Origin: Mesaphorura yosii
Lineage: Eukaryota; Arthropoda; Collembola; Poduromorpha; Tullbergiidae
DNA: 64,000 bases
Direction of reading: 5' to 3'
Assembly (NCBI GenBank): GCA_009869945.1
Contig: WIXG01000098.1
Coordinates: 124,001-188,000 of the forward strand
This document shows positions 1-23,521 of the stretch, one piece after another. The notes beneath the pieces are model-generated. The model had not been told where the DNA came from and made no database searches. It saw only the letters and a list, made by a program, of their open reading frames with translations. Numbering within the stretch: position 1 is the stretch's first letter; each line of letters starts with the position of its first letter. Position numbers and translations under genes: made by a program.

Positions 1-7
1 TTTCGAG

Positions 8-13
8 TTTATT
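8..13 (-). terminator. Poly(A) signal of RTEL1
   Basis: AATAAA on the minus strand, about 145 nt after the RTEL1 stop. An equivalent AATAAA is kept in the duplicated copy at 20650-20655, so the 3' UTR was copied together with the exon. Confidence 0.6.
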
Positions 14-157
14 CTGAGTACAAAAGTAGTAGAAAATCTTAATTGCTAGTCAGTCTTGTCAGTTCATTGAGTTTGGCGGACCGTAAAAAAATACAAAAGA
101 ATTGTTCCGCAGATATGACCAGCCGCTTTGCAGGAGACCGACGAAAAACGATGAGAT

Positions 158-3100: not shown

Positions 3101-3957
3101 AGTAATTGTACGGCATGAACACTATCTCAGCCTGCTTCACGAGCTCTCGCGACATGTAAAACGGGCAGAACTTCCCGGCCCGACCCTTCTTCACTATGTC
3201 TTCGATATCCACGACCGGAGGCTCGTGCAAAGTAGGATCGTCCATCCTCTTCCCGACGTTATTGTAAAACTTGCAGGTATGAGTGTGTACTTTCGAATGA
3301 CACGCCCTAATCTTAGCAGACGAAGTCGGCAGGCGCGCCACTTCTTCGTGCACACACATTAGATCTCTGGAGCCCAGAACAATCGTCTTTGCTCTCCGGT
3401 AGTGAGAGCGCTTCAGCTCACGAGCCGCCTGGGAAAGTTGTGAATGAGTACGAGAAGCGTAGATAATCACTGGAACCCCCATCAGCCCCTCCTCCGGATC
3501 AACCCCTGCAAAACACCAGCCCGTGAGCAACCAATCACTAATCAAACCTAAACAAGGCTGAATACTGCGCACCAGAATTCTGTGGTATCCGAAATGGTCC
3601 TCTGTGTTTGGCACTCTCCACCCGCAGCTCAGCGACCTTGTAACGCCTCGCCGCCTTCTCCTTCCTCTGCCAGGCGGCGGCCGAGCATAGAAGCGACAGC
3701 GTTTTCCCCGTTCCTGTCGGCGATTCTAGAAGCCCATTCTTCTTCTACAGAAAGACCATCAACGAATTAGCTATAATTAATACTTAGGAGAACCGCGATT
3801 CGTTCAGTATGAGTTGACGAGTCGGACTCCGACTCCTTACCTCTTCAATACACTCTAACACCTTGGCCATCAAACTCTTTTGGACTTCATACGGCTGAAA
3901 GGGAAAATGAATATCCAAGCCTCGAACCCCCACCACGTGATCCCCTGACGTTCCCAT
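158..3957 (-). CDS. RTEL1: RTEL1: regulator of telomere elongation helicase 1 (Fe-S, XPD-like)
   Basis: ATP-dependent 5'-3' DNA helicase of the XPD/FANCJ family that in animals unwinds D-loops, T-loops and G-quadruplexes in the nucleus. I join 12 exons, high to low coordinate: 3957-3841, 3744-3573, 3505-3057, 2978-2865, 2767-2390, 2325-2222, 2134-1765, 1687-1571, 1499-1359, 1274-1038, 968-296 and 228-158, giving about 1080 aa. All junctions keep frame with GT-AG sites. The start matches the family N-terminus (FPFQPY near residue 15). Walker A is ESPTGTGKT (46-54). Four Fe-S cysteines are at 147, 165, 174 and 210. Motif II reads DEGH (253-256) instead of DEAH. Motif VI is QAIGRIIRH (672-680). 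The C-terminus carries one harmonin-N-like domain (about 1000-1078), completed by the last exon. I see no second harmonin-N-like domain, RING-like C4C4 cluster or PIP box, so it is simpler than human RTEL1. A poly(A) signal lies at 8-13. Confidence 0.93.
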
Positions 3958-6900
3958 CACACTTTCTAACGCAGATCGGTCAATGCTTTTCAACCTTTTC
4001 CTCTACAGTTCAGCAAATCTGAAACACACAGTGACTTGGATAATTATGCACCAAATGCAATCAATCATTCATTGTAAACACAATTACTTGAGCCTCTGAC
4101 TCTTTATTGTCTTTATGCTTGACTGCAATTGACTGCAATCTGAGTTAAACGTTGACTTAACTTAGTTCGGTGCAATTGGTTCAATCGGATATTATCGTTC
4201 AGGTCTGGTAGAAATAAAGCAGTCGGATTGCAATTGCTTGAAATGCTGGTGAACGCAACTGATAGGAAACACAATTAGGATGGGAGCGCGCTGCATGAAC
4301 GTAGCAATTTACTGATTAAATTAAGAGCACTTACCAAAGTCCACACACAGCACAAAGCTCCAACACTTCCAACACACCGACTGACCTTCAGCTACTTCGC
4401 GGTTCCCTTCTGCAATTTCGTTGAGAAGAGACAACTGCACTCGATGAACACCACAACTCAACTGAAGTGAAATCTCTCTCGCTCTGACAAGAGAAGAGCA
4501 GGCAACGTGCACTCGGCTGGCTAGGCTCGTTTCCCTCAGCTTTTTTGAAATGAACAAAGCCAAGTCTTTGTTCAGGACGCGCATGAGACTGCAACTTGCC
4601 TGAAACCTTGTCGGAGTAGCCCAACGGATCTTTCCAGGCCCTCCACCACCACACAGTCTCCTCCAAAGGTCCCACCAGTCACATTCCAGTTCCCCATAAG
4701 GCATGCACATGGAAAACGTGACTTGGAGTGCGATTTTCATTTTTCGTTGGGCATGCAATACTGAGAAATCGGGATTGACAGTCGATGTATTCATTTCAGA
4801 GTGCTGCTGGCATGCTGCTTTTCTTTCCGAAACCCGGTCGTATGCATAATAGCAATTTCTCTCCGAATTCTTCATGTGGGGCCACCGCGCTGGGGTTTTG
4901 GACTCTCGTCTGCATTTAGCATTTGTTTTGTATGGAAAGTGGATATGTTCTATGCTGTAACCCAGTAGCCCAGAGAGAAGAGACGGCTGGCATGGCAGTT
5001 GTCTCGATTGGCCGCGTATCCTTTGGGAAGCGAACGAGGGAGATTCGTCGGCCAATCCCGCGCAGCGAGCGGACTAGATTCCAGTTCCAGCTTCGCCAGG
5101 CAACGTGAGCGATCAGCCTGCTAACAACACAGCGAGTCAGGGTTCCGAGCTGGAACCGCATTTCTAAGTGCATCGCAAGCAAGCTTCGTTTAGCTTGGCG
5201 AGCGAGAAGAGGAGGCTTCGGAGCACTGCTCTGCCTGTTCTGTGCTGTACTGTGCGTTGGTCGCATTGGACCGTTGTTGAATGGTCGTGCAGTGGCAGAG
5301 CCGCTTGATGCGGGAGAAGCTACAAGCGAGTTCCCTTCCACCGCACACAAGCGAGTGCAGAAACCAAGCCCCGCTTGAAGTACGCTGCTTTGCTGTACGT
5401 ACGGCTTGGCATCGCTTGGCTTGGGTATACGAAACCAGGAGCAGCATTGGCTTGGTGGCTTGGCTGTTGTTGCTGTGACGCTGCCGTTGGTTTCGTCGCT
5501 TGTATTTCTACACACAAGCCTCAACGAATTCGCATTTGAGTGTTTGTCGTCTCAGAACGCAGCAACTCTGCACTTGGCTCCATTGAATTCTGCATTTATT
5601 CTGTGGCTGACTTTGGTGACCACTTCGACCCCACCAGACTCGTAAGTCCGCAACCAATTAATTAATTAAAATAGCCAAATCCTCGGCCCTTCACCGCGCT
5701 TCACGGCTCCGTCGGCCCACGCCCCACCTTCCATTTGGAATTTCCGAGAATTAATTGGTTTTCTGGGACGCTAAAATACAGGCAATCCAATATAACGAAT
5801 GCAGCACAGAAGCGCCTGCACTCACAGTCAAAAGCATACGCGCTTCCAGTGTAGTGCACAACAACCGCTCTCAGACTCATTCGTTTAGTCGTTGATTGTC
5901 GGGGACGCGCAATTAGCGAACCAATTAATTAGCAACCGACAACCCCACATGACAGGCAGGGCATACCTTACGGGATAGGGGCAGCCCTGAGCAGGGGGCT
6001 CGGGATTCATGTTGGTGTACTTCAGCGCGGGTAAACATCGAGTCCAGGGCCGGTTGGCGTCTTCACATTTTGCATTGCATTTTTTCCTTCGGGGGTCTGG
6101 CGGCTCCGGGCATCTGCACGTCCACTTGCATGGCCACTTCTCTCCCCTCCCCTTCAACCCCGAAACTGCCGAAATCATTAAATCATGGGAGTAACGGCCG
6201 ACGGAGCCCCAAAAGTTGTCACTCGAGTGCAAGAGACAAAGTTGAGACGACGCATTTTTGCATCTACTTTCATCTCAACTCTTTGGCTTTGCATTACATC
6301 GCATCATTTCGATCGCATTCAAATCGCAGGCTTTTCATTTGCGTCACTTTCATCGACTTAATTCAAAGAGGCGGCATCCCAGTCCGACTCTGAGCGTGTA
6401 TTAAAAGTCAGGCGAGTGTTTCGGTATTTCTCAGGCCGTTGAGCATTTGTGTTTTCTGTTTGCATCTTCCGACTTGCGTCTTCTCTTCGGTTTGCATATG
6501 CAAAACAGATTAAATTTCTCTGTTTCAAATTATCAATTGCAATAGATGTCAGATTTTCATTTACCTATGAGAAGAGTAACGCTCGATTCCAGGCCGGCCG
6601 AGCCTGTGGGAATTCAGCTTAAGCCAACGCTCAGAGCACTGAAAGTGCAGGAGAAATGCAGTCCAAGTCGGATGCAAATCCACCAATGCATTCTGAGAGC
6701 AGAGGCAATGAACACAAGCATCTCAGGCTTATGTGGAAGGTGGACGTTGGCTGATGGCTGATTAACGGTGAATGCAAGGGAGCATTTCTACCTTCGTCTC
6801 AATACACTCAAGTGCACTCACTGTACGAAGGGAGCGAGAGAGCGGGCCCTGCATTTTACGTACGCGTACGTTGAATGAGTGAGACAGAGAAGCAGAGTCA

Positions 6901-7005
6901 GTCTTGCTTTTCTTTGACGCGCGTCCAGAGTCGAGTCGAGATTGCACTTGCACTTAATTTGACTTGGCTCTGATTGTTCCATTGTTACGTTTTTGGTGTT
7001 TGCAG
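3958..7005. promoter_or_regulatory. Divergent intergenic region and 5' regions of RTEL1 (-) and HMGB (+)
   Basis: About 3 kb between the RTEL1 start and the HMGB coding start. On the minus strand an acceptor just above the RTEL1 ATG (near 4005-4010) suggests an upstream non-coding RTEL1 exon. On the plus strand a strong donor (CTC|GTAAGTCC) at 5641/5642 and an acceptor at 7005/7006 suggest a non-coding first HMGB exon ending at 5641 and a 1.36-kb first intron. A minus-strand open frame of 244 codons at 4321-5055 and another of about 200 codons at 4916-5524 show no recognisable domain, and I do not call them genes. Exon boundaries here are inferred from splice sites only. Confidence 0.5.
6491..6504. 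promoter_or_regulatory. Perfect 14-bp octamer-type palindrome
   Basis: TTTGCATATGCAAA is a perfect inverted repeat of two ATGCAAA half-sites, the core recognised by POU-domain factors. It lies in the predicted first intron of the HMGB gene, about 530 bp upstream of the ATG. A regulatory role is inference from the motif alone. Confidence 0.35.
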
Positions 7006-7027
7006 ATTCATTAATTGACTCGCGAGA

Positions 7028-7794
7028 ATGCCGCGTGGAAGCAAAAGCGACAACAAGCCGCGTGGTCGGATGACTGCGTACGCGTACTTTGTGCAAACCT
7101 GTCGCGAGGAGCACAAGAAGAAACACCCCAACGAGAGCGTCGTTTTTGCCGAGTTTTCGCGCAAGTGCGCCGATCGATGGAAGGTAACATCTAAACTTTC
7201 TAAAGTAATTAATTGACGGACTAGACTAATTAACGACTCAATTTTATTTATTGTACAGGTGATGTCTGACAAGGAGAAGAAGCGTTTCCAGGACATGGCT
7301 GACCGGGACAAGAAGCGCTACGAGAAAGAAATGCAAAATTATGTGCCCCCGAAGGGCGACAAGGGCAAGAAGAAGCGCCGTCACACGAAGGACCCCAACG
7401 CGCCAAAGCGTGCCCTGTCAGCCTTCTTCTGGTTCTGCAACGACGAGCGCCCGAAGGTCAAGAGCATCAACCCGGAATACGGCGTCGGAGACGTCGCCAA
7501 GCAACTTGGCAGGCAGTGGTCAGAGGTCAAGCCAGACGTCAAGCGCAAGTACGAGGCCATGGCGGAGCGAGACAAGGCTCGCTACGAGAAGGTAAAGAAA
7601 GCAAAGACCAAACTAGAAACTACGAACTACCCTTCCGCCTATTCGCAGGATCCACTGACCAGATTAATTAAACCTGCATCTCTTCCTTTTTATAGGAAAT
7701 GGCAGCGTACAAAAAGCGCGGTGGCGGAAAGGCTCCGGCCCAGCAGGACGACGACGACGATGATGATGATGACGAGGATGACGAAGACGAGTAA
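7028..7794 (+). CDS. HMGB: High mobility group B protein (two HMG boxes, acidic tail)
   Basis: Abundant nuclear protein that binds and bends DNA without strong sequence preference. Exons 7028-7183, 7259-7591 and 7696-7794 join in phase 0 to give 195 aa. HMG box A starts after a short basic leader (MTAYAYFVQ near residue 15) and spans the first intron. Box B begins at the typical [12 protein letters not shown] and runs to about residue 165. A short Lys/Gly linker leads into an all-acidic C-terminus of nine Asp followed by mixed Asp/Glu. Order and length match vertebrate HMGB1-3 (about 200-215 aa) and arthropod HMGB/Dsp1 without the Gln-rich N-terminus of fly Dsp1. The start has a good context and an upstream acceptor at 7005. 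The 3' UTR probably ends after AATAAA at 8251-8256. Confidence 0.95.
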
Positions 7795-8594
7795 ACGCCC
7801 GGCGGCGGGAGGGAGGACCTCAGCTTCGTGGAATACTTTAATTCATTTAGCCTCTTTGCATCTGTTAAGCCCTTCTTCCCTTAACGATAATTTTAGTCTC
7901 CTTTAATCTGTACAAATCTCTAATTTTAGGAGAAGCTTCGAGCTCCAATTCTCAGTGTTTTGTCTGTTTGTGTTTTTAGCATGCATGTCTTATTTTCTTA
8001 ACATTTTTAGTTGTTGTGTGTTGTGAGTAAAGCAAGTAAAGATTTTCGTAAGTTAATTCCTAATTATAAGTGTGTGTTAATGAGTAACGTACGAGGAGTT
8101 GAGTATTTTAAATAGTTGCAGTCTGTCTCGTGAGTGTCAATTCAAGTTCTGTACAAGTAAGCTAATCTACACTCTGGCATTAATGCTAAATTTAATCTTG
8201 GATGTAAACACGAGTGAAAATAAGAATGTAGTATCTCAAATCTACTGTGAAATAAACATTAACGTACACTCAACTTTCTGCCTTGTGTTCGGCTACACTG
8301 CGACTGCATTCATTTCAGCCATTTACCATTTCGTGTCAGGTCGCCCCGCAAAAGCAAAGCGCAATCAGCACATGTCGAATGAACCATTGAGAAATTTAGA
8401 TTGAATGCATCACGGAGATTGCGGTCAGTTGGCCGGATGACATGAATGCCAAAGAAGTGTCGTTCGTGACAGATGAGAGCGTTGATCGTGTCAGTGAGAT
8501 AAGAGGCAGGACAGAGAAAGCGAGAGGAGGTCATTCGAATTGAGACGGAGAAGGACTCTCAATTGACACTATTAATAAAGTTCGCGTGATAAGG
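7795..8594 (+). other. HMGB 3' UTR, poly(A) signal and short spacer to AMDHD2
   Basis: AT-rich transcribed tail of HMGB with AATAAA at 8251-8256. About 330 bp of spacer follow before the next gene on the same strand. I see no further gene. The spacing is long enough for a separate promoter, so co-transcription is not implied. Confidence 0.5.
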
Positions 8595-8744
8595 ATGACC
8601 AATGACCAGCACGAAACTTCCACACTCATTCGCCGACTCGCCTCTCCCATAGTCCCACACGCAGACGGACAGCCGCACACGACAGCCGGGAACTTGCCGA
8701 TCTCCATCGCTCGACTCAAAGCGGAAACCGAATCTCCAGTCGAA

Positions 8745-10880
8745 ATGTCTCTCATGCCCGGGAAGAAGCGCCTCTGCTCGCCGTCTCTCATCTTCGAGGC
8801 CGAGCACCGGTCCAGACTCCAGCAGGGCTCGAAGGAGGAGGTCACTCGACTTCTCCGGCAGGAGTGGGTCGAGAGCAGTCTTGAGACGAAGCGAAAGTAC
8901 GTCATCCTCGCCACGCAGGCCGCGCAACAGCAACAGCTGAGCGGCGAGAAGCAGAAGAGGAGCGAGCAGGAGCAGCAGAGTGCTGCGGGAATTCTCGGAC
9001 AGGTTCCAAGGGCCGATCTGACACTGCCCGGTCGCCTCGCCATCTCGAAGTACCACAACTGCCTCGTGCTGAGGAACCATCAGCTCTTGAGGGACGAGTT
9101 CTGGACCTACGGCTCCATCATCATCAACCCCGAACCCCATTTCTTCAACGAGAAGGTCGTACCGGACTTTGTGGTCGACTGCCGAGGAGCCCTCATCGCT
9201 CCTGGCTTCATCGACGTCCAACTCAATGGTCAGCCACAGACACACAAGCAAAGAGCCAGAGAGAGTTTGATTTTGACTGTAAATAACTTAATTGGCTGCT
9301 TTGGTTGGCTCCTTAGGTGGATTCGGAGTGGACTTCTCTTTCGAGATTGACTCTGTCGAGGAGGGACTGGCCAAGGTGGCTAAGGGCGTACTGGCTCACG
9401 GAGTCACCTCCTTCTGCCCAACCCTCGTCTCCTCATTCCCAAAAGTCTACCAAAAGGTAGGGCAAATCTAAATCAGGAGCAGCACATTTGTTCCTTTCTG
9501 ATCAGAAGCGACTCTGACTGACCCATTCCACTGAAGGTACTTGCGAAGCTGAGGGCCACGCCCGGCGGTGCGCATGGAGCCCAGATCCTTGGGGCCCACG
9601 TTGAAGGACCTTTCATCAACGCGGAGAAGAAAGGCGCCCATGACCCGAAAACCCTCGTTCCAGGGTTCGAGAAGGTACCCTTAATTTGTACGGGCCAGGT
9701 GTACGGTGGGGGATGCCATTTTACCATTTGAATTCAGGGGCTGCAGAGTGTGGTGGACATGTACGGTCACCTGGACGCCTTGGCCATCATCACCATCGCT
9801 CCGGAGCTGAAGAACGCACTGGCTGTGATCAAGCAACTCGACGAGATGGGCATAGTCGTCTCCGTCGGTAAGAACCTTCAAAAGCATTTCCCACTGCTGA
9901 GACTTGGAGAAGTGGTTATTTGTGGCAGGCCATTCCGTGGCGACGATCGTAGAGGGGGAAGAGGCCGTGGTGCAGGGCGCCTCCTTCATCACGCACCTCT
10001 TCAACGCCATGCTCCCCGTGAGTCTCCTCTTCAGTCACTCCATTCCAGCCAAGCCTACATTATTTTGGGTATACATTTGTTTCAGTTCCATCACCGAGAC
10101 CCCGGCCTGGTGGGGCTCCTGGGCTCGAGCAAGATCCCGGCGGAGAGGATAATTTACTACGGCCTCATCGCCGACGGGATCCACACGCACCCCGCCACCA
10201 CGCGAATCGCCTACCGATCCTACCCGAAAGGCGAGTCTCCTGCCTTCTCTTTTGCTGCGATTCTATGATAGTTTATCACGGCCCGAATTTCGCGAGAACA
10301 GTTTATCACAACTTAGTTTATCGCCGGACAACATTATTGCAGAGCACAGTTTATTGCAGGTCAAATTATCGCTAGTGAGGGGAGTTCATTGCGGGGTGGC
10401 CCCTCAGGTTATTTTAGCCCAGGTAGTCCCGAGTCGGTAATTTGGTTTCTTTTGCGCAGGCGTAGTTTTGGTTACTGACGCCTGCTCGGCGATGGGGCTC
10501 TCCGACGGGACGTACCAGCTGGGGCAGCAGGTGATCGACGTGCAAGGTACAAAGGCCTTCATCAAGGGCACGAGCACATTGGCGGGGAGCGTGGCGACGA
10601 TGGTCCACTGCATCCAACACTTCTGGAAAGTCACCTGTGAGTACCTGCCGCTTTACCTACTTTCTAAGGCTTTGTTCTGATGTGGGCTCTCCTCGCAGCC
10701 TGCTCGCTCGTGGAGGCGCTGGAGGCCGCGACGCTCCATCCCGCCAGGCTCCTGAAGATCGAGGCGCAGAAAGGCACCCTCGACTTCGGCTCTGACGCAG
10801 ATTTCGTGATGCTCAATCCCGACAAGCTGAACGTCCTCTCGACGTGGATCGCCGGAGAGTGCGTCCACACAACCGCCTGA
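8745..10880 (+). CDS. AMDHD2: N-acetylglucosamine-6-phosphate deacetylase with N-terminal HMG-box-like extension
   Basis: Cytosolic amidohydrolase that converts GlcNAc-6-P to glucosamine-6-P plus acetate in amino-sugar salvage. Exons: 8745-9228, 9317-9456, 9537-9674, 9738-9867, 9929-10017, 10086-10230, 10460-10636 and 10699-10880 (494 aa). The frame is also open upstream to an ATG at 8595, which would give 544 aa. The enzyme proper starts near residue 88. Visible active-site elements are HVEGPF (Glu231), GHS (His299), [16 protein letters not shown] (His320) and VTDA (Asp382), matching the metal ligands and catalytic Asp of NagA. Intron 6 has a GC donor. Animal AMDHD2 is about 410 aa. The extra N-terminal residues contain an HMG-box-like stretch (about 7-60) and a Gln/Glu/Lys-rich linker in one uninterrupted exon. 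The deacetylase call is firm; the extension's start and function are not. Confidence 0.93.
10231..10459 (+). repeat. GC-AG intron 6 of AMDHD2 with degenerate TTATCGC-type repeats
   Basis: The flanking exons join only if the intron begins AAAG|GCGAGT, a GC donor. Inside, short related words recur between 10265 and 10400: TTTATCAC twice, TTTATCGC, TTTATTGC, TTATCGC and TTCATTGC. A 7-bp perfect stem, TGAGGGG with CCCCTCA, surrounds 10375-10410. It looks like a small decayed tandem repeat. Confidence 0.5.
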
Positions 10881-10932
10881 ACCTGAATTAGCCTTCCGGT
10901 TTCCAAGACTCCAGTCACAGACCAAATAATGA

Positions 10933-10950
10933 AATAAATTACGGAATAAA
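10933..10950 (+). terminator. Poly(A) signals of AMDHD2
   Basis: Two AATAAA hexamers at 10933-10938 and 10945-10950, about 55-65 nt after the AMDHD2 stop. The facing RpL31 gene has its own signal on the other strand at 11009-11014, so the two genes are tail-to-tail within about 60 bp. Confidence 0.65.
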
Positions 10951-11069
10951 TTTCGACCGTCTAGTCCGAGCTTAGAACAATGCAGAAAATAATTAATAAC
11001 AATTATAGTTTATTCGAGCCGACTCTTCCACAATTTAGAAATGTTGTAAAACATTAAGAGGAGGTGTGC

Positions 11070-11702
11070 CTATTTGGACTCTGCGTTGAGTGTCTGGAGT
11101 CCTTTGTAGCTGGCCACGGGCACGTATGTGACGATGGTGTACAGCTTGTGCACAGAGTCCTCGTCGTCGTTCCGCCTCCGCTCCAGCTTCACCCGCAGAC
11201 GGAATGGAACATTCCTGCAACCAGAAAAATACACACACATCAGTAAAGCGAATAAAAAGTAATTAAATTGGGAAATGTTGAAGAGCAGCGACTGTGAAAC
11301 TTAATAAGAAGCAAGCGAGAGAGAAGAGCCTCAAGTCTGCAGGGTTCAAAGTTTCAGCTTAATTTTGGTGTCATTTCAAGACAAAAGATTCAGGGGAACA
11401 AATCCGAGTTCTGCCATGTACACCATTGCAAAGAATAATCGTAGTTGCAGTTGCATTTAAGGTTATATGACAACTCACCGAACTCCGCGGGACCAGACTT
11501 GTTTGTTGACGCCCTCGTCGATCCGCACGTCGACAGTGCCCATTTGCTGAACAGCAAACTTCCTGATTTCGCTGATGGCTCGTGGAGCACGGCGCTTGAA
11601 CCGAATTCCGTGGAGTCTCTTGTGCAGGTGAATCGTGTACACGCGACTCAGCACCTCGTTGATCGTCGACTTCTTCTTCTCGTCCTTGGTTTGCTTAGGC
11701 AT
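11070..11702 (-). CDS. RpL31: 60S ribosomal protein L31
   Basis: Component of the large cytosolic ribosomal subunit near the exit tunnel. Coding exons 11702-11479 and 11214-11070 join within a codon (TTCG|GAAT) to give 122 aa, the family's usual length. Recognisable blocks are [48 protein letters not shown] and the C-terminal [19 protein letters not shown]. The 5' UTR is split: an acceptor at 11725/11726 gives a short leader (11724-11703), and a donor at 11950/11949 ends an upstream non-coding exon beginning somewhere near 12.0 kb. The poly(A) signal is at 11009-11014 (minus). It is divergent from SAP30, and the two probably share the 12.0-12.5 kb promoter region. Confidence 0.97.
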
Positions 11703-11951
11703 CTTGACCCGACTATTCTTTACCCTGCAAGGCAAGAATAAAACCGCAATTAGTTAATCGATCCGAAATTAATCAGTCCCTCCACAGGCAAATGAGCACT
11801 GCACGTGAAGAGACACACAAATGAGACCAAAGTAGCCATGTGGAGGCGAGAGAAGGACCACAGGTAGCCAAAGACCCCTAAATCACTGACAGATGTCAAA
11901 TGGGGCACTGCCCAGAGTAAAGAGCCACTGAAAAGAGGTTGGAAACTTACC

Positions 11952-12832
11952 TTGGAAGGATCCCGACAGTTGACTGGAGCAGGAATCGCTGATTCGAAGT
12001 GAGTTGGACTTCCGACCCGGTGCGGTGTTGGAGTGTTGGAGTTGCAATATGAGTACAGTGCAGGCAGGCAGAGGAGACAGCGTGCGTGCAGAGCAGATTC
12101 AAATAATGGCGACTCCGTATGGCAAGGTTTCGCTTAGCATGAGCACAGTATACAAGAGCACAGTCAGTACAGAATAGTATAGAGCTGCAGCAGTGAGGAG
12201 TCGGACAGCCGCGTGGTTCTTCTCGGTTGCGCACTCGGGGGAGGAGCTCCCTTCCAATCCACACAGGCAGCACTGTATGCAATGCACACTCGCCTTGGCT
12301 CACTTGGCTTGCCCGCACAGCCGAGTCGTTCCTTTCTTCTTCCACTACGCTCGCGTACACAAAAATAAACAAAAACAGATTCGAAAAATCGCACTCGTCG
12401 CAGTGAAGCAATGCACGCAGTCAGTCTGTGAATCAGGACAAAAGAAAAGAGAGATTCAGACCCTCTCAGCCCCAAATCAGCGACTGTAATGACTGCAGCC
12501 CTCGAGGACTCTCCGCCAGCACAGCACAGCAGACAGCAGTGAACGGTGAACGATACTCTACAAATCCCGGAACAGCCCCGTCGTGGTTGGAAACCTCACT
12601 GCTGGAATTCCGCCAGAATTCCATTGTAGCCACTTGCTGCTCGGAAAAGGCGAGCCACAGACTAGACTTCACCAAAGTCTTAGACGCTGATCCCACCGAG
12701 GACGGTACCACAGAGCCCCAGACTCGAGTAAGGAAAGGGAGAGAGCTAAGATTGCTGATCTGTCTGAAGTTGACGTGCTTTGATTTGAATTGCAGGCAGA
12801 GGTTGGTGAGTCATCTGCCTGAGGAAGGAAGG
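11952..12832. promoter_or_regulatory. Putative divergent promoter region of RpL31 (-) and SAP30 (+)
   Basis: About 0.9 kb between the RpL31 first exon and the SAP30 ATG. A donor-like CTCGA|GTAAGG near 12726 and an acceptor TTGCAG at 12790-12795 suggest a non-coding first SAP30 exon with a short intron. The plus-strand frame is also open through this region back to 12428, but that part has no recognisable protein features and I treat it as 5' UTR. Transcription starts cannot be placed from sequence alone. Confidence 0.45.
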
Positions 12833-13836
12833 ATGAATGGGTTGGGTGTTGGTGGTGTTGGGGTAGCGTACCATAGCGAGGACGACTACGACGATGGGAT
12901 GTATGGGAACGGGGGCGGGATGATGGCCAGCCCAGGGGGGATGATGGGCACCAACCTTAGCAAGCTGAGCTCCGTGATGCCAAACTATGCATCCACAGTG
13001 CCTCCTGGCCCCCTGTCCTCCCTCCACGGCATGGCCAGCCAGGCCCAGCTCCTCCCTCCCTCCCATCACCACTCGCCTTCCGCAGTGCCCTCCGCCTACG
13101 TCAGCAGCAGCAGCGTCGGGCCTGGTCTGGGTGGCCTGCACGCAGCCCCCTCCGTCGCCTCCACGCCCAGCAGCGCGGGCGGGAGGAGCCAAAACACCTG
13201 CTGCCTCATCGACGATGGACGCAAGTGCGGTCGCAACGCGGGCAACGCGAGCTACAGCAAACGAGTGCAGAAGACCGTACTCCACAAGCGACTACGCCTG
13301 GAGACAGACTCAAATGTAAGGAGCCTAACCTGGAGGTAGTGGATGTGCCGTCCCCAACTTTTAATTGTGTCTTGTGTTTCAGGTGCAGCACATTTACATT
13401 TGTGATTATCATAAGATGATTATTCAAAACGCGCGGACGCGGCAGAAGAAGGAGTCGGACGAGGAGCTGATGGACGGGAACCCGGACGACGTGCCCGAGG
13501 TGGACCTCTACCAGCTTCAGGTCAACACCCTCAGGCGCTACAAGAAACACTACAAAATCTCCAGTCGCCCAGGTCTCAATAAGGCCCAGCTGGCCGACGT
13601 AAGCGCCCACGCAACAAAGTGTCAGAAACTCCTCCTCAGCTGCGATGCTCTCATTCTTCTTTTAGATTCTGATGCGTCACTTCAAGACGATTCCAGTGCA
13701 GGAGAAGGAGATCGTGACCTACTTCATCTATATGGTCAAGGCCGAGAGGAACAAACTGGACAATACCAGGCCCGAGCCGCTCCAGCAAGCGGCCGGCCAC
13801 GCCATGGCCGACTACCAGTCGGTCCGCTACAACTGA
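12833..13836 (+). CDS. SAP30: SAP30 / SAP30L: subunit of the Sin3-HDAC co-repressor
   Basis: Nuclear protein bridging Sin3 and DNA or phosphoinositides in the class I histone deacetylase complex. Exons 12833-13315, 13383-13598 and 13666-13836 give 289 aa. The first 115 residues are low-complexity (Gly, Met, Ser, Pro, His). The atypical zinc-finger module has CC at 123-124, Cys132, and CDYH at 168-171, with the family's NASYSKR segment between. The C-terminal Sin3-binding region has [23 protein letters not shown] and a helix ending [13 protein letters not shown]. The core matches vertebrate SAP30L closely; the long Gly/Met-rich N-terminus makes it longer than human SAP30 (220 aa). The start is the first Met that does not depend on the implausible upstream frame. 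Poly(A) signal at 14526-14531. Confidence 0.93.
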
Positions 13837-14525
13837 TAGTCAGACTCAAAACGAAAAGCGGAGGGCAAGCAGCACGCCTGCCTACCCTCCCACCCAATCA
13901 CGACAGACCACAGAGATTCCCGCCACACGGCAATTCAGCAATGTGGAAGGGAGCAAAACACGCACACAAAGCCGCCTTCGAAAGAAGACGAGGGCATCAG
14001 TGGCACCGAACGCTGGGGCCGCTGGCAGTGGAGACAAAACGAGAAACTTGGCTGGGAATGCCAGCAGGGCGCTTTCCTAGTTTTCTTTCACTTCCTTTTT
14101 CATGGCAATGCAATAGTTTGTTCTCTTGTGATTTGACGGGACGGACGACGAGTGGCTACGGGACTCCTGGCTCTGACCACTCCGTCAAGAGTCCAGGGCA
14201 CTGCGAATCAGAACAATCCAGATTTCATAAATTTTAAATTATACATTAGAAATAATTCTTGTTTTCCTGTGCAGTATTTTCTTCTTCCCACTTTTTTCAG
14301 AGTCGCTGTGGAGTCTGGCGGCTGGGAAGCGTCTTCATTTTATTATTTTAGTTGCCCAAATGCTTAGAAGTATAATTATGTGATATCCAATATCATAATT
14401 CTATTTCATATTTTTGACTCGAGTCCACTTGTCGATGACTTTTAGCGTTTCACTTTTACAGTAATTCCAATCATTCATTGACTTGGTTGCTTCAACTTGG
14501 CATCAAACTTTTTATACGCTGGACA

Positions 14526-14579
14526 AATAAAAGTCGTGCATTTAAGAAATCAAACGAATCCTTCATTTCGTGCTTTATT
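14526..14579. terminator. Convergent poly(A) signals of SAP30 (+) and MICU1 (-)
   Basis: AATAAA on the plus strand at 14526-14531 and on the minus strand at 14574-14579. The two genes end tail-to-tail, and transcripts cleaved 10-30 nt past each signal would be nearly contiguous or overlap slightly. Confidence 0.6.
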
Positions 14580-14680
14580 CGAAGTAAATCAATTTAGGCG
14601 AGGGACTAGAAAAAAATTCGTCGGAAGGTGCGAGTGTGTGAGGAATCAGGCTTATCAGGAGAATCATTTCGTTATTTGCA

Positions 14681-17543
14681 TTATTTGGTTGTGGGGAGTG
14701 ACTCGCGGGCGCATCTGCCGATGGAGCCGAGGAGCTTGAAAAAGCCCGTGTCCTTCGGCTTCTCGAGTCCCCGCATCAGCCGGTTCTTCATCACAGCCAC
14801 AAATTCCCGGTTGCTCAACTGCCCGTCCTCTGCAAGCCATAAATAAATGAGAAATGACGAACGAGCATGCTTTTTCGATTCCCAATATCTCAAGCGCTGA
14901 TGAGGTTTTCGGTTTTCACTCACGGTTTTCATCAAATAGCGTGAAGACGACGTCGATTATATGCTCGCTCAGGTGCACGTGCGCCACCGTCTGCCCGACG
15001 TGCTTCAGCGTCCCTGCAGAAAAAGGCATTGAAAGGTGACCGGGGGTTGTTTGTTTTGTTGTAGTTGGTGAACTCACGCGGGTCGATGGCGGCCCCGGCG
15101 ATGTGGTAGAAAGTGAGTGCCGTGTCCACGTCGTTGATGTTGTTCAGCAGGTGGAAAAACTGGAGGTAGTCATCCAGCGACACGCCAGTCGCGTACTCAG
15201 CATCCTTGCACCTGCTCAGAAAACAAAACACTGTCAATACTTATTAAAATTGTCAATACGAAAGGATTTGACTCAATCGACGCGACGCACTTCTTCTTCA
15301 CGCGCTTCAGCATGCGCGCCTTCTTCTTCGAAGGGTAACCCGCGTACGCGAGCAGCAACTCGGCAAACTCTGCCTCTGTGATTTTCCCCTCCGCGTTCGG
15401 CTCCTTCCGCCGGAACTCCAGATTAAGAATTTCGCTCTGCAGCTGCTGCTGGAAGTCCAGAAACTTTTCAATTGTCAGTTTGTTTCTCCGGTTCGAGCCA
15501 AAAAAGAAGGCAGTCAACGCCGAATTCATTCCCTGCAATTAAATTAAATTAAATTTCGGGTCACAAAGCTAAGCGTTCGTTATGTTTACCTTGAGGGTGT
15601 TTCCGGAGACGGCGTGGTCGCGGTGTCGGGCTCCGAAAGTCGTTCGTTGCCGGATCAGGGCGGTCACCTTTTCAAACTCCTCGTGGTCGACGTCTCCGTC
15701 TCCATTTAGGTCAAACATCCGAAAGGCAATCTCAAAGTGCCGTCTCGACGCTACAAACCACGAATAGAGTCAAGACCAATAAACATTTAAAGGAATTTAA
15801 ATATTGGCTTACTGGAGAGGACGGTGAGGAGGAAGATGTAATCCGAGAAGCTAATCAGCCCGGCGCTGCCCAGCTTGTAGAAAATAGAGTCGGGGTCGAG
15901 TTCCAGCTCCAACCTCCCAGCCAACTGCAAAGAACGCATCTCCATTAAATGTGCTAAGTGAAGAGCTTCAGTGAATTCAGAATAAATCGACTAGAATTTA
16001 GGACGACGGGTCATTCGCATGCAAAAGCACGACTCAACTACGAAAAGAGCAACAAAGGCGTTCGAGAGGCGAGCGTGTACAGAAAGCCAAAACTGATCGG
16101 TGCTGAATTAAACTTGGTGGGTTGACTGGTCGGCTGCAGTGAGAAGTCGCGATTGAATTGAATGACTACGAATTCGGGTTCAGCTGATGCCCGACTACTT
16201 TCGTGCCCAAGTGCGAGACCGACTCGGAGAATTGAGAAAAGTGCGGAGGTCAAAAGTGGGCAGAGAAGGGGAGTCTCAGAGAAAGCTGGGGCTTTTACCT
16301 CTCCGTAGTTCTGACACGAGTTTCGAGTCGTGTGAGTGGTTCAGAGACACAGTGGACAGAGAAGACAGAAAACACAGAGTCACATGAGAGCACAATTCCA
16401 GGGGCATGGAAGAAGCGAGCACGACATGGAAGCCGCTTCCACACAGAATCGTCAGGATCGAGGGGAAGGGCAGGTTAGCAATTAAATTACGTGGAACAGA
16501 GGACAGAGCCAAACACACCACTCAGAAGGAGCAACGAGTTAGAAGGCGGACACTTACTTTCGGGTCGTATCTCTTGAACTGGTCTAGCCCCAACCCTGAA
16601 AACATGCAAACGAAATCACGTTAAAGTAATTCGGCCAATGTTCGTTGTCACTCGCAATTCCAACTGACCGTCCGGCTGTTTGACTCCAGGCGTGATCGAC
16701 CGCAGAAAGTCGTCGGGAGTCATGAAGATCTCCGACTCGTTATTCGGATGGACCACCTGGAGCGTCGCAAAGTAACGAAACGTCTTGTCGGGAGTCGAAT
16801 ACTGCCGGATCCGGTTCTCGTACTCAATTATCTGTAGAGGGTGAATAAGACAGCTGTGAGCTTAGCCTAAGGAAGCAGAATACCAGAAGGCTCGTGTCTT
16901 GTTGTTGGCTCACCTTTCGATCGCGAAACCCGACTTTCTTCCTCTTCTTCTTCTCAACAACCTCCGTCGAAGTCGACTCGGCAAGCGACTCGCCGGGGGT
17001 TTCCGCCTTGTCCAGAATCGAGGCGGCTTCCACGACGCCCACATCGAAGCCCTTTTTTCTCCTGAACGAGTACACCATCCTGACAAAAACAAAGAATTTA
17101 GACATGGTCTGCTCAGTGGATTTCGGAGTGGGGACTCACCCTTCGATGTCCACAAAAAATCCAACGAAAAATCCGATTGGGAGCAGGAGCATGAAGAACT
17201 GAAGTACTTTGGTATCCGGGGGCGGCGTCTGGTGCCCAAAGTCACTGTACGCCGCACCCATTTTGTGACGCACAACTAGTCCAGGCCACACGCTCTTTGG
17301 TTTCTGCCTGGAAACTCCTTCTCCGAGGAAAACATGTGGGGGCGGAAGTGGCCGGCATTCGGAGCTCGTGCTTGATTGGCGCTTAGTAAGCTGTGCATTG
17401 TAGATGGTGATAGTTCGCCGATTGGAGGAGCAGACGACGGAGTGGTTGGAAGTCAGCGTATTCCACGTCGAGCAGGGCCAAGCCTGTGCTGCCTTCCTGG
17501 CCACCCCTTCACGGAGCGCCCTCCACCCAATCATCGTCAACAA
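14681..17543 (-). CDS. MICU1: MICU1: mitochondrial calcium uptake protein 1
   Basis: EF-hand gatekeeper of the mitochondrial calcium uniporter, facing the intermembrane space. Ten exons: 17543-17140, 17079-16914, 16831-16669, 16595-16558, 15924-15813, 15750-15590, 15532-15291, 15211-15078, 15013-14924 and 14829-14681, all in frame (552 aa from the first ATG). The N-terminus is Arg-rich, fitting a mitochondrial presequence, followed by a hydrophobic span (about 113-130) that would be the membrane anchor. The polybasic KKKRKK precedes the family signature GFRDRK and [13 protein letters not shown]. Two canonical EF-hands are at 308-319 ([12 protein letters not shown]) and 501-512 ([12 protein letters not shown]). 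The C-helix has [10 protein letters not shown] and a Cys near the end, as in human MICU1. An alternative start at 17261 would give 458 aa and lose the presequence. Divergent from the C19orf12 homologue, another mitochondria-linked protein. Confidence 0.94.
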
Positions 17544-18035
17544 CTAACAAAAGAAGGAATGATTTCACCTTAAGCATGAAATAGGTCAAACGGCTTTGCT
17601 TTACATAACTTTTCACTTTTTACCTGTTCAGTGATTGTAGTCCCAAACAAGCATCCTGTATTGACCTCGGCAACTGTGGTATTGGAAATCAACTGCCCTC
17701 TTCACAACGAATAAATCTTTGTGAGCAATTCCTAAACAAATGACAGTTTCGGTTTGACCTTGGCCACTACTTAGAGAACGATGGAAGAGAATCAATATCG
17801 ATCGAACATTTATTCGTTTGAAAGTCAAAGTTGGCTCTTCCTCTTCTTCACGCTGCATGCAGTCAATGCAGCAATGTTGGTCCCATGCATTCTGCTGTTC
17901 GTGTTTCATGCACGCTTTGTTAAAGTCGAAAGTCAGCGATAACTCAGTTACACTAATTAAGCCTGCCGTTATCTTTTGACCAATTAAGATGAGGTCACGG
18001 CGTCGTGCTGCAGGAATGAACTAAAGATAGAATTG

Positions 18036-18110
18036 GCATGCTCAGGATTGGATGGGCGAACTCAAGATTGACCTGACGAACACCAGGTTGACTTGGCGAA
18101 CCCGGTTAAT
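18036..18110. repeat. Short 20-bp tandem repeat (about 3.5 units)
   Basis: Successive units begin at 18036, 18055, 18075 and 18095 and share the pattern GGCGAACTCAAGATTGACCT with substitutions (for example GACGAACACCAGGTTGACTT). It lies just before a second, differently patterned degenerate repeat, in the spacer between two divergent genes. Confidence 0.6.
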
Positions 18111-18159
18111 TAGGGACTCATGGTAGTTGTGGTGCACCTTGCCAACTGGCGGCCCACGC

Positions 18160-18460
18160 GCTGGAACCGCCAATCCAATCGGAAGCGACTCCTCAATCGG
18201 CAAACGACTCATAATCTACAAATCTCTCCAACCAGCAAACAGCTCCCGAATTAGCAAATGACTCCCCAGTTAGCAAGTCCAATCGGCAACGACTCCAGAG
18301 TCAAATGCTTCCCCAACCTTCAAACGACTCCGAAATCGACAAATCCTCGATCCAATTGGTAAACGACTCCCCACTCCTCAATCAGCAAACTCCCGCTCCA
18401 ATCTGTAAATCGTGAATAAAATCGGCAAATCGCTGATTCAATTGGCGAAGCGATCCACCA
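18160..18460. repeat. Degenerate minisatellite of the AATCGGCAAACGACTCC type
   Basis: Roughly 17-22-bp units recur about 12-14 times across 300 bp, with variants such as CAATCGGCAAACGACTC, TTAGCAAATGACTCCCC and AATTGGTAAACGACTCC. Unit length and sequence vary, so this is an old or imprecise array, not a recent expansion. No coding potential is evident. Confidence 0.6.
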
Positions 18461-19173
18461 CATCATCATCGGGGGCCATGAGTCAATTGGAGCTCCAGGC
18501 TGGTTAATTGAGGTGACACGTACCAATTGGAGCCCCACACTGTTTGATTGGGGGGGGGACACAGACTCGAAGACTCCCCTCGTGACCCTGCTCCACGAGG
18601 CCCCATACCTAATTCTTTCACCCGCGGCATCAACCATCGTTGACGAAGCGGCAGTGGATGCTGCACTCTCAAAAATTTGAGCTGAATTGCTCGGTGATTA
18701 GTTTTTGTCAGCATCGGGCGACCCGATTACCATAACGAAGCAGCTCTCCTAGGGGACTACCAGCAGACAAGCCAGATCCGAGGTGGTCTTCGGCTTCTTT
18801 GTTCGCCCTTCAACAACACGTCAAGTCCACGTCGACTTTCTTGCTTGTGTGAATCTTCCGCGAACCAAAACAGAGATGATTTCATCCCGTTCTCGAGTTG
18901 AATTTCAGCTGAGCCAGCAAAGTTTTACATACTCGGCCTTGAGCTCCTTGAAAAGTGAATCTGAAACGCATTTAACCTTTCATGCTCAGTCCAACTACAC
19001 ATTAGAGTTAGCAAAGGTAAGCACACATTTGCAAAGTGGTCCTGCTTAGCTTAATTAATTAATTCGCAATACTGCTACTACTACCTTGTCGTGTAATTTT
19101 GCAGAAGAGCGAGACTTCATCAACCGTTCGTTTTCTCGGGTCACCTGCACAGCGGACTTTATTCGCCAGGGAA

Positions 19174-19647
19174 ATGGTCATCAGCACGGGGGACATCATG
19201 GACGCCTGTCGCCTCATCGCTCGGGAAGACGAACTCAAACTCTGCGTCTACGAGTCTATGAAGGGCGCCGGCATCGCGGGAGCGGGCGCGTTCGTGGGAG
19301 GCCTCATCCTCGGCCCCGTCGGCCTTGCCATAGGTAACTTCATACAAGCAGTTCAGTGGGTGATCGGGTGTTGCATTTACAACTTGTGTTTCTTCTATCT
19401 CTTAGGCGGTGCAGTTGGCGGGTTGGTGGCGGCATCGACCAGCAACTCGTACACACCGCTCATCCACCACCTCGATTCCATGACGGAGGAGGACAGGGAA
19501 AGACTGCGAGTGCACCTCTTGCGAGTTGTGTCCCAACTCGAGGTAACCGACGCCGTCATGCTCATGGCGCTCGTCAGCAGCCCCAGCAGCGCCGCCAGGC
19601 AAGCCATCACCCGAGGAATGGGCTCCTTCTTCGGACAGAGCTGGTGA
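19174..19647 (+). CDS. C19orf12: C19orf12 homologue (mitochondria/ER-associated membrane protein)
   Basis: Homologue of human C19orf12, mutated in MPAN neurodegeneration. The family's molecular role is not settled; it is tied to mitochondria, ER contacts and lipid homeostasis. Exons 19174-19333 and 19406-19647 join at a glycine codon to give 133 aa (human about 141-152). The start MVISTGDIM matches the family's DIM motif. The Gly-rich hydrophobic hairpin typical of the family is seen as GAGAFVGGLILGPVGLAIGGAVGG (about 34-58), with the intron inside it. The C-terminus has LEVTDAVMLMALV, the family's other conserved block. The frame is open upstream to 19099, but that stretch is most likely 5' UTR after a splice acceptor at 19104. 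Poly(A) signal at 19786-19791. Confidence 0.92.
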   Translation: MVISTGDIMDACRLIAREDELKLCVYESMKGAGIAGAGAFVGGLILGPVGLAIGNFIQAVQWVIGCCIYNLCFFYLLGGAVGGLVAASTSNSYTPLIHHLDSMTEEDRERLRVHLLRVVSQLEVTDAVMLMALVSSPSSAARQAITRGMGSFFGQSW

Positions 19648-19951
19648 ACAAGGAAGAGGACCTCAATCCGGTGCTGCAAACCTGCAAATAATTCACTGTG
19701 AGCTGTCTCCAGATGTTCAGAATTTCTTAACTTTTATAATGAAAATCGGAAATGTTTATGCATATCGAAGACTCACGAATCATGAAATAAAAGTTTTCTA
19801 GGTTTATTAGAAATACGTAGTTTTCTCACTTATCACCGGGTATTTTATTCACCTCCAACTCGCCCTTTTCCACCAGTTTTTCAGTTCCACTAAATTACTC
19901 AGTACAATTGTGTTTCAATATAGACGACTGTTAAGTTGAATTGTTTGCTCT

Positions 19952-20413
19952 TTGGAATTTGGAAACATTAGGCCGAATTTTGAGGAGCAAGAAGAGAATG
20001 TGGGTATATGTGGGGCGGATACGGTAAAAACATCCGGAGCATCTCGACATTTACACTTTGGTCTCTGCAATGCACAAATTAAAATGCCACTTTTCATCGG
20101 CACTGTGATGAATGGTTCCATCGTGATCATTTGCATGACGAATACGCAAGGAAACAAAGTAATACTGACAGAAATTGGGACATTTTGGCCTGTCCGACCT
20201 AATCAAAGAAGATCAGTTGCTATTGTAGACTATATGGATTCTGTTATTGCGAGTACGACAACCTGCGGATTTCTCAACGAAGCCAACTGTATGGACGCAT
20301 TTGACAGATATACATGGCCTCTTATTCTCATAGCTGGTATAATATCCGCTATTATCAACAGTATTCGAGTCGATGTGAGATTGCCCGTCGTGTCCACATG
20401 CAAGCGAATTTAA
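19952..20413 (+). CDS. Unidentified open frame upstream of the RTEL1-derived fragment
   Basis: A 153-codon frame with no domain I recognise. It has several Cys, and a hydrophobic stretch near the end (WPLILIAGIISAI) could be a membrane segment. Its last part runs into the intron-derived portion of the RTEL1 duplicate. A donor-like GAT|GTGAGATT at 20372/20373 could splice it to the acceptor at 20431-20432. In that case it would read the duplicated exon in a different frame from RTEL1, for 37 codons up to a TAA near 20546. It may be a chimeric gene or a chance frame. AT content is higher than in the flanking genes. Confidence 0.25.
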   Translation: MEFGNIRPNFEEQEENVGICGADTVKTSGASRHLHFGLCNAQIKMPLFIGTVMNGSIVIICMTNTQGNKVILTEIGTFWPVRPNQRRSVAIVDYMDSVIASTTTCGFLNEANCMDAFDRYTWPLILIAGIISAIINSIRVDVRLPVVSTCKRI

Positions 20414-20660
20414 TTCGCCTACTCCTTTGCAGGTCTGCAAGGAATTCTTTCGATCGACGACGTCGAACACCTCCGCTGTTACCTTCGTGACAATCCCCAG
20501 TGAATCCCATTGTTTCTCTGGCTGGTCATATCTGCGGAACAATTAACTTTTATTTTTTTATGTCCCGGTAAACTGAATGAACTTGTTAGAAGACTGATTA
20601 GCGGATTCTGATTTTTAGTTTTCTATTACTTTCGTTTTTTAAAATGCAGAATAAACTGGA
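20373..20660 (+). pseudogene. Duplicated 3' end of RTEL1 (last intron, last exon, 3' UTR), inverted
   Basis: This segment aligns with the reverse complement of window positions 1 to about 280. It includes the donor region, the intron word GCCCGTCGTGTCCAC, the acceptor, the whole last RTEL1 exon (20433-20503, with the stop at the same place) and the AATAAA at 20650-20655. A 68-nt block, 20427-20494 against 234-167, is identical. The 3' UTR is diverged by substitutions and has a deletion of about 19 nt. Upstream of 20373 there is no similarity to RTEL1 exon 11. It cannot encode a helicase; it is a partial duplicate or the 3' part of a chimeric transcript. Confidence 0.85.
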
Positions 20661-20801
20661 AATAAAAAGAAGAAAGGAAAATGCGAGATCACTGGCTTTG
20701 GTTAGAATGACGTGGTAGTTTAATGATTTCAACAATGCGTGGTTAGAATTTTAAAGTTTGGGAAGTGCGTAACTAAAATTGCTGGATGCGTGGTGTTGAG
20801 T

Positions 20802-23521
20802 TCAGTAGGAGGTGGTTTCTGCCTCGGAGCCGGCACTGCCGACGGTCGGCGGACGCTGAAGGGTGCCTTCACGAAGAAGCTGCTGAACCTTTTCGAACTC
20901 GGGGTCGCTCGCGCTCTCGTCAAAGACGGTGAGGGGTCCGACCTGGTTCTCAAGGATGGCGGTGTAGAGCGGGCCGTAGACGAGGCGGTTGTGCGTGACC
21001 ACCTGCGCCAGCTCCCGAACCACCGGCAGCACGTCGCCCCGAACGGAATACAGTCCGGCCGGAACAGGCGGTGGCAGCTGAAAACGCCCTCCGAAGATCT
21101 CCTCCGCATAGTCCAGAATGCGACGGTCTGAAGAGCAAAGCAGAGTTCAGACAAGTGACAAACACCCGGAACAAGAAGTGGCAGTGGCAGGTCGTGACTT
21201 ACAAATGAGGCCGCGAACTTTGTTATGTGGGCTGTCGATCTCTCGAATGCACTGCTTCAGGCTGCTGGCTTCCGTAGCGCTCATCTCCCGCCCCAGCTTC
21301 TCCTTAACGAATCCACTCATGACCTTGAGCACCTCCTCCGAAGCAGCCGCAACGCGGTCCCTCAGTTTCCTAACGAATAACCAGCAGCAGTGACCAGCAG
21401 TGAGGCGAGGACTAAAACATAGGCGAACTTACTCGGCGTCGAGGACATCTTCGTCTCCGATAATGACTTTGACGTGGTTGGTCAACAGCTCGCGAAACTC
21501 TTCGGTCGTGTCGCCAACCATCGTGTGCATGTGCCCAGAACCTGCAAGTGAAAAAGGAAACGTGTATAAGTTCCCACTGGTAAAATATTCTTGCATTAGT
21601 AGTTTCTCCTGCTCACCCGTGACGCAGATGGCGCCGATGATAGCCAGGCGGAGAAACTTCTGAGCTGCTGCGCGGAATCTTCTAATGTCCAAAGCGAGAG
21701 TCTGGTCGACAAACAAACAAGGAGCGGGTTAGGAAACGGGGCGATTGTTCGAGTGGATAAATTAAGTGATGTTTGGGCTTACCTCTGGCGGGTGTTGATC
21801 CAAGGTGGGTGCAAGGAGTTCGGAGAAAGCCTTGGCGAACACTTCGTGGGGGGAGCGGTTGTTGAGGGCGTGGCGGGCGAGCCAATTTCTGGTGGCTCGG
21901 AGGCCGTCCTCCCCGAGGCGTCGCTCGACGGCGAGGAACTCCGCGAATTTTACTCTTTCGTACTGGGCGGCGTGAGCGACGATCTTCGGACGAAACTGCT
22001 GAATGTAGAAATTGGCAATGTCCAGCTTCATTTTCTCAGCCACCTCCAGAATTCCCTCGAACACCAAGGCGGGATCGTCAAGCTCTTTCAGCGCCGCCAC
22101 GTCGCCGTCCCGCGACGGACTGCACAGCTGCGCCAGCGTCTGAATGATAAACTCAGAGTATGTCTAGCAAAGGAAATTACAGCAAAATAATAATTAATTA
22201 ACTCGAGTTTGTAGATTGTGGCAAGTGTTGGTGGTCAATCACTTTGAAGTCTTCGTGTGTGAAGGCGTCGTGCTCGATGCGCTGCGAGATGAGCTCTACG
22301 TCCAACTCGCGGTCGATCATCTCGCGGGTCTTTGTGTTGTGCGGCAGAAGAAGCCCCAAAATGCTCTACAAAATAAACTCATCTCAGTTAATTGAGTTAC
22401 CCATGAGCCAATAGAATTGTGGGGTTTTACCTGTTTGACTTCCTTGAATACTTGGATGGCTCGTTTGTACTCGGGCGGCTCCCGTCGGATCTCCTCGTTG
22501 AAGAGGTCCCAGTAAGCACGCTTCAGCTGCACCTGAACGCGACCCTCAATTCTTTACGAAACAAAGACAACCAAGTTGAGATTGGGTTGAGATATGATTG
22601 GATTTGGACGGTGGCTGCTTACGATTCTGGGGGCGGGGTGTAGCGCTCGACGCGGAAGTCTGGACTGAGGGAAATTTCGTGGGCGAGGAACATGTTGCTG
22701 AAGCCCTGAAACGCGTTGAACAGCTCGTCGTGCGGGACGCGGGTCGGATTGGGGCCCGGAATGATGAACTCAGGGTCGTGCTTAATGAACTCCTGAGACT
22801 CCGTCGTCCGCCCAAACTTCTGCTCCGCCGCCGCAGCCTTCACGTCCTCCGCCCGCACCTTCGTAGCGTTGACCTCTCCAAACTCACTCCGATCCAGCAG
22901 CGGCTTGCTCATGTTTTCCAGCGTTGTGGGTGACAGTCGAACCGACACCTCCCGGCTCGCTCTCTCCGTCGTGCAGCGCGAAGCCTCGGGCGCGTCGTGC
23001 CCCACGGATCCCGGCGCAGCGTCAAACAGCCACTCGGGGTCACTCAGTCGCGGAGTGGCGTCCACTCGGCCGCCGCCCACAGACGGAACGCTCTCCACCG
23101 ACTGCAGGGATCCGCTCCCGAAGGTTGCCGCCTCCGACGAAGCGTCTATCTCCCCATCGGGAAGGATCGGGCCGTTGATGAGCGCATCGTTGATGATGGC
23201 GTTGTTGATTTCGGAGATGGGCTTCTGGTCGCACGCACCGCAGAGCTCCAAATCCGCGAAGTCTTTCGAGTGGGGAAGTTTCGTCCTGAAATGACAAGCA
23301 TGAATGAGCACTCACGTCAGTTGAGCCTCACACCAAAGTTCGGTTTGAACTACTCACTGGGCACGGTCGATCTTTTCCTGGAGGAGCTGTCGGGTGACGG
23401 TATTCTCATCAAAGCTTTCCTTCTTCCAGTGGAAGCGCGAAGGAGGGTCAGATTGTGGCTGGGGGTGCTCCGACGTCTCGACGTCCTCCGGGACTGCAGT
23501 CTTCTTCTTGTCTGACTCCAT
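20802..23521 (-). CDS. TCP11L1: T-complex protein 11-like (TCP11L1/2 family)
   Basis: Member of the TCP11 family, known from sperm function (TCP11) and of unclear role in the broadly expressed TCP11L proteins. Nine exons: 23521-23358, 23285-22623, 22551-22431, 22365-22243, 22163-21783, 21701-21617, 21541-21433, 21369-21203 and 21127-20802, in frame (712 aa). The TCP11 domain starts near residue 235 (NMFLAHEISLSPDF) and includes KRAYWDLFNEEIRREPPEYKRAI, LLLPHNTKTREMI, EFIIQTLAQLCSPSRD and MKLDIANFYIQQFRP. The first 230 residues, mostly in the 663-nt second exon, are acidic and Ser/Pro-rich with no domain I recognise. Human TCP11L1 is about 509 aa, so this is an extended form. Start chosen as the Met at 23521; the frame is open further upstream. 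Its 3' end faces the RTEL1-derived copy. Confidence 0.9.

Follow-up and report, generated by a model that had tools for sequence, protein, structure and literature searches.

Inversions of Drosophila chromosomes that arose through staggered breaks or repair synthesis carry breakpoint sequence in inverted orientation at both ends, and the genes truncated there decay, as described in the portions of three reports drawn on here (PMC3355041, PMC5080602, PMC7584159). Here, we describe an inverted duplicate of about 0.76 kb in the collembolan Mesaphorura yosii (GenBank assembly GCA_009869945.1) that holds the joint tail of an RTEL1-like helicase gene and a TCP11-like gene, and that is best read as the scar of an inversion breakpoint. 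The window, a stretch of 64,000 nucleotides from contig WIXG01000098.1 (C98:124001-188000; positions without a contig name are those of the window), contains the right copy and part of the left one, and the assembly searched comprises 93 Mb in 1127 contigs. By the same partial accounts, inversions 2h and 2q of Drosophila mojavensis resemble this locus in carrying partial copies of genes; 2h has deletions in one copy and was dated from the divergence of its duplicates, the duplicated stretches measure about 1 to 7.2 kb as against 0.76 kb here, and the uninverted order of 2h and 2q is known from D. virilis, whereas ours is reconstructed (PMC3355041). In Drosophila subobscura O4 and O8 (PMC5080602) and O7 (PMC7584159) the truncated genes decay, as TCP11 does here, while at the opposite end a functional copy is kept, and O8 keeps pieces of just 380 and 128 bp (PMC5080602). 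These three inversions are polymorphic and were compared with the uninverted chromosome, whereas ours would span about 20 kb and is seen in one genome; unlike them, as far as the excerpted descriptions go, the doubled stretch here takes in the final exon of each gene in a convergent pair. A literature search, covering parts of the reports, found no described case of two convergent genes kept whole by a doubled stretch.

An earlier note, made from the letters of the window, had pointed to a perfect inverted match of 68 nucleotides, and all 68 positions of 20427..20494 (forward strand) do agree with the reverse complement of 167-234. The gapped and diverged intron and 3' untranslated region (UTR) that it described on either side are likewise present, with AATAAA in both copies. 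The homology is far beyond chance (2e-61 by BLASTN; E 3.5e-71 in the genome search), and this is a true inverted duplicate. In full, the repeat pairs C98:123549-124277 with 20383-21145 (C98:144383-145145) on opposite strands, in an alignment of 782 columns that is 79.9% identical when gaps are counted; over the 710 aligned sites identity is 87.7%, with 87 differences and 12 gap events. More than half of the left copy falls outside the window, beyond the reach of the earlier note: 452 bp (C98:123549-124000) precede the part inside it (1..293, reverse strand), which is sure to 277, while the right copy (20367..21145, forward strand) is sure from 20383. The weak similarity at these margins, to 293 and 20367, may bring one end of the repeat near the 5' splice site of the last RTEL1 intron; at the other end, similarity fades about 15 bp inside a TCP11 intron. 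The duplicate had been thought to be confined to the last intron, last exon and 3' UTR of RTEL1. It does hold the end of that intron, the exon and the 3' UTR, but its extent was underestimated: beyond the RTEL1 poly(A) signals the repeat continues through the 3' UTR of the TCP11-like gene and into the last exon of that gene.

Only two places were found when the genome was searched for further copies with 20340-20700, the search scoring the best candidates only. With two places in 93 Mb, and with ends in or near introns of two unrelated genes, a mobile element was rejected, and an artefact of assembly or of haplotypes is unlikely, with 16% of non-coding sites differing and no second full-length copy of the flanks found. 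When C98:74001-228000 was compared with itself, three pairs reached 1e-10, the other two being far shorter than this repeat. Genome-search queries of up to 2001 bases recovered their own place; two of about 15 kb (15.3 kb and 14.9 kb) gave 15 and 2 matches and missed theirs, so that their sensitivity is doubtful and they were not relied on.

Read in the RTEL1 sense, the repeat comprises the end of the last intron, the last exon and the 3' UTR with AATAAA, beyond which the TCP11-like gene contributes its own 3' UTR and last exon from the opposite strand. The RTEL1-like gene (158..4002, reverse strand; drawn from domains and open reading frames, with approximate limits and exons joined by eye) matches DEAD_2 (PF06733, 1.8e-38), ARCH_RTEL1 (PF23109, 6e-11) and Helicase_C_2 (PF13307, 1.4e-38), bearing out the claim that the duplicate copies the end of RTEL1, and the coding part of its predicted last exon is at 158..228 (reverse strand). 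The orphan copy of this exon at 20433..20503 (forward strand) retains the reading frame, the splice acceptor, the stop codon and AATAAA, and ends NPQ-stop where RTEL1 ends NKE-stop. That the last exon completes a harmonin-N-like domain found no support: the joined RTEL1 C-terminus had no Pfam match up to E 10 and gave chance-level matches in the PDB (best E 0.41), and PF23116 (HHD_RTEL1) had no match on C98 and one sub-cut-off match on contig C246 when the exons were searched one by one, which might overlook a domain split between them. The TCP11-like gene (PF05794, 5.9e-25; domain extent 20952..22553, reverse strand) has its intact last exon at 20802..21131 (reverse strand, placed by sequence match), inside the right copy.

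Each gene is complete beside one copy of the repeat and truncated beside the other. The left copy adjoins the sole full RTEL1 found, and TCP11 is there reduced to a frameshifted last exon; the right copy adjoins the sole full TCP11 found, and RTEL1 is there reduced to its last exon. What the earlier note had taken for a duplicate of RTEL1 only, whose tail is indeed copied, is a joint RTEL1/TCP11 tail. Family matches of TCP11 are confined to C98:144952-146163 and 146428-146553, which make up one gene, and its last exon gives three matches, namely the intact right exon and two left pieces in different frames. In the genome search, the 2001 bp of TCP11 that adjoin the repeat on its upstream side matched only themselves, and 21146-23800 had no match in C98:74001-124000, that is, no TCP11 relic was found there. 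Similarly, the long exon that directly precedes the last one in RTEL1 has one place in the genome, beside the left copy, and 293-4200 matched nothing in the rest of the window except for one 20-bp match. Decay of the truncated copy is clear for TCP11, whose left fragment has lost, besides its frame, the AATAAA found at 20554 (ATTAAA is retained in both copies); the orphan RTEL1 exon keeps its frame. Because truncation affects both ends, copying of the RTEL1 tail alone is insufficient, since it would leave one site with both full genes. When the segment between the copies is flipped, RTEL1 and TCP11 become convergent neighbours that share one copy of the repeat.

This arrangement was probably left by a chromosomal inversion of some 20 kb, reaching from RTEL1 to a C19orf12 homologue (two matched stretches within 19174..19644, forward strand; PF20721, 5.5e-18), that came about through staggered breaks. 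Such an inversion would produce both truncations in a single step. Before it, RTEL1 and the TCP11-like gene would have stood tail to tail, an order that we infer from the flipped arrangement. One of the two breaks would have been staggered, with ends about 760 bp apart and each gene cut within its last intron or close to it; alternatively, repair may have copied the same stretch of about 760 bp, and either way the joint tail would have come to lie on both ends. The segment from RTEL1 to C19orf12 (294..20366, bounded by the aligned copies) would then have been rejoined in reverse, leaving the joint tail inverted at its two ends, with RTEL1 keeping its last exon at the left and TCP11 its own at the right. 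With cuts in or near introns both genes stay complete, and the spare exon at each end, being without a gene, would drift, the copy at 20433 presumably being idle. From the non-coding distance between the copies (0.177), the age would be about 8 million years at the Drosophila rate of 0.0111, which may not suit this organism and which we took, from the part of its source drawn on here, to be per site per million years per lineage (PMC3355041).

Divergence differs by segment: 52 of 329 non-coding sites differ, 31 of 311 in the TCP11 exon and 4 of 70 in the RTEL1 exon, and coding and non-coding divergence are distinct (Fisher P 0.008). On the inversion just described, the exons diverge less because only one copy of each is free to change. 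We modelled such one-sided decay with the working exon frozen and the orphan drifting at half the non-coding distance, the upper expected figure adding an assumed 25% for silent change in the working copy. The TCP11 exon is then expected to show 27.6-34.5 differences (31 observed, at codon positions one to three 11, 6 and 14, compatible with drift plus silent change) and the RTEL1 exon 6.2-7.8 (4 observed; P of 4 or fewer 0.11-0.26). Within the repeat, the probability of a run of 68 is 0.002 with difference events placed uniformly and 0.018 with adjacent mismatches merged, and a two-rate model in which the exons diverge one-sidedly raises this to 0.01-0.10. The run is thus only moderately unusual. 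The greater conservation of the exon than of its surroundings, for which gene conversion, constraint at the nucleotide level or a functional RNA had been proposed, is real but mild, and with 4 differences against 6.2-7.8 none of the three is needed; the 68 identical bases are largely expected from an exon kept intact at one end.

Several observations weigh against the inversion. The structure is seen in one genome, and the uninverted order is a reconstruction. The second breakpoint carries no matching scar, the left flank and the C19orf12 side sharing only chance matches of 11-12 bp; a missing duplicate at that breakpoint has been reported for other inversions, O8 among them, in the portion of the account drawn on here (PMC5080602). 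A truncated membrane-protein-like gene that lies at the right junction has no remainder on C98:74001-228000 (E 1e-3), and its splitting by the second breakpoint was rejected, with no remainder on C67:198001-228000 either (best E 0.039). Lastly, the four differences in the RTEL1 exon are adjacent and, merged into one event where 4.6-5.7 are expected (P 0.02-0.06), leave the exon somewhat too conserved for an idle copy.

The main rival holds that the 20-kb segment never turned: a reversed copy of TCP11 and the RTEL1 tail would have arisen beyond C19orf12, after which all of the original TCP11 but the last exon would have disappeared. This would yield the same two inverted copies and the decayed left last exon, and the missing scar at a second breakpoint would be no difficulty. 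It needs two events, however, and left of C98:123549 there is no trace of the upstream exons even though the last exon is 90% identical, so that TCP11 would have to have been lost by a deletion whose end happened to fall right next to an exon. We consider this course of events possible but unlikely; from one genome, it and the inversion cannot be separated for certain.

Gene conversion that refreshed the RTEL1 exon would be an overlay on any of these rearrangements rather than an alternative to them. The differences are clustered, and besides the run of 68 there is a second one of 50 in the TCP11 exon, at the opposite end of the repeat (P 0.0006 with uniform events, 0.008 with merged ones). 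The slower divergence of exons that weakens the case of the 68-base run, and the fit of the total exon differences to drift of one copy, speak against it. Because the four RTEL1 differences are adjacent and count as one event, local conversion is possible, though not required, and on balance we think it unlikely that it took place. A stronger proposal, that the two copies still exchange sequence and that such recurrent conversion holds the orphan RTEL1 exon to the sequence of the working one, making the scar a lasting spare template for both last exons, appears rather improbable. The inversion might instead have come in two steps, the joint tail first being copied into a site near C19orf12 in reverse orientation, and recombination between the inverted copies turning the segment afterwards; the present structure would be the same and the inverted repeat does exist, but this adds one step to the staggered break and its intermediate state has left no sign here, and we hold it to be hardly likely. 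It is very improbable that the 20433 copy itself works at the nucleotide level, whether as a functional RNA or as an exon that a gene upstream has taken over. Its frame, splice acceptor, stop and AATAAA are retained and the fragment upstream is open up to the exon, but Rfam gave no match in 1-26000 at gathering scores, the exon differences in total can be explained without such constraint, and the upstream open frame, joined at a GTGAGA-like donor, would by its letters miss the RTEL1 frame.

If the inversion by staggered breaks is true, it adds one more case of a known mechanism at small scale. A break between tightly packed convergent genes can leave both whole when the doubled stretch carries both last exons, and small inversions can be tested for within a single genome by looking for an inverted duplicate at which two genes are truncated in complementary fashion. 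As a caution, striking identity of an exon can come from one copy alone being free to change.

The breakpoint repeat is the sole match that joins the two ends; some 85 bp beyond the left copy there is a repeat found in three places (C98:123310-123464, with partners at C98:93640-93794 and C131:186084-186159), and the membrane-protein-like fragment named above abuts the right copy. This fragment (20000..20383, forward strand, recognised from genome matches) lies between C19orf12 and the right copy, spans roughly 120 of approximately 620 residues and is truncated at either side. It belongs to a multicopy family with 21 matches at E 1 or better, the fragment being one of them, and with open frames of 609-643 amino acids at five of the seven loci examined. 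The family may be ionotropic-receptor-like, but Pfam gave no match for it, and that label is therefore not used here.

The last 25 or so codons of the C19orf12 homologue, its 3' UTR and the sequence downstream (19579-19983) have a truncated copy on another contig (C67:217414-217797), flanked by what we take to be tropomodulin-like and HDAC6-like genes. An origin in the same event as the breakpoint repeat was rejected, 22 of 306 non-coding sites differing as against 52 of 329 (Fisher P 0.0008), and this copy looks separate and younger. That this one intergenic space bears several scars may point to a fragile site. Within the segment between the inverted copies, a dispersed repeat of about 170 bp (10257-10426) has, at E 1e-10, 14 further matches in the genome, a count that comes from one of the queries of about 15 kb and shares their doubtful sensitivity. 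The left neighbour of the breakpoint repeat is a series of minus-strand open frames at C98:120376-122111, which presumably resemble a Neverland-type Rieske oxygenase.
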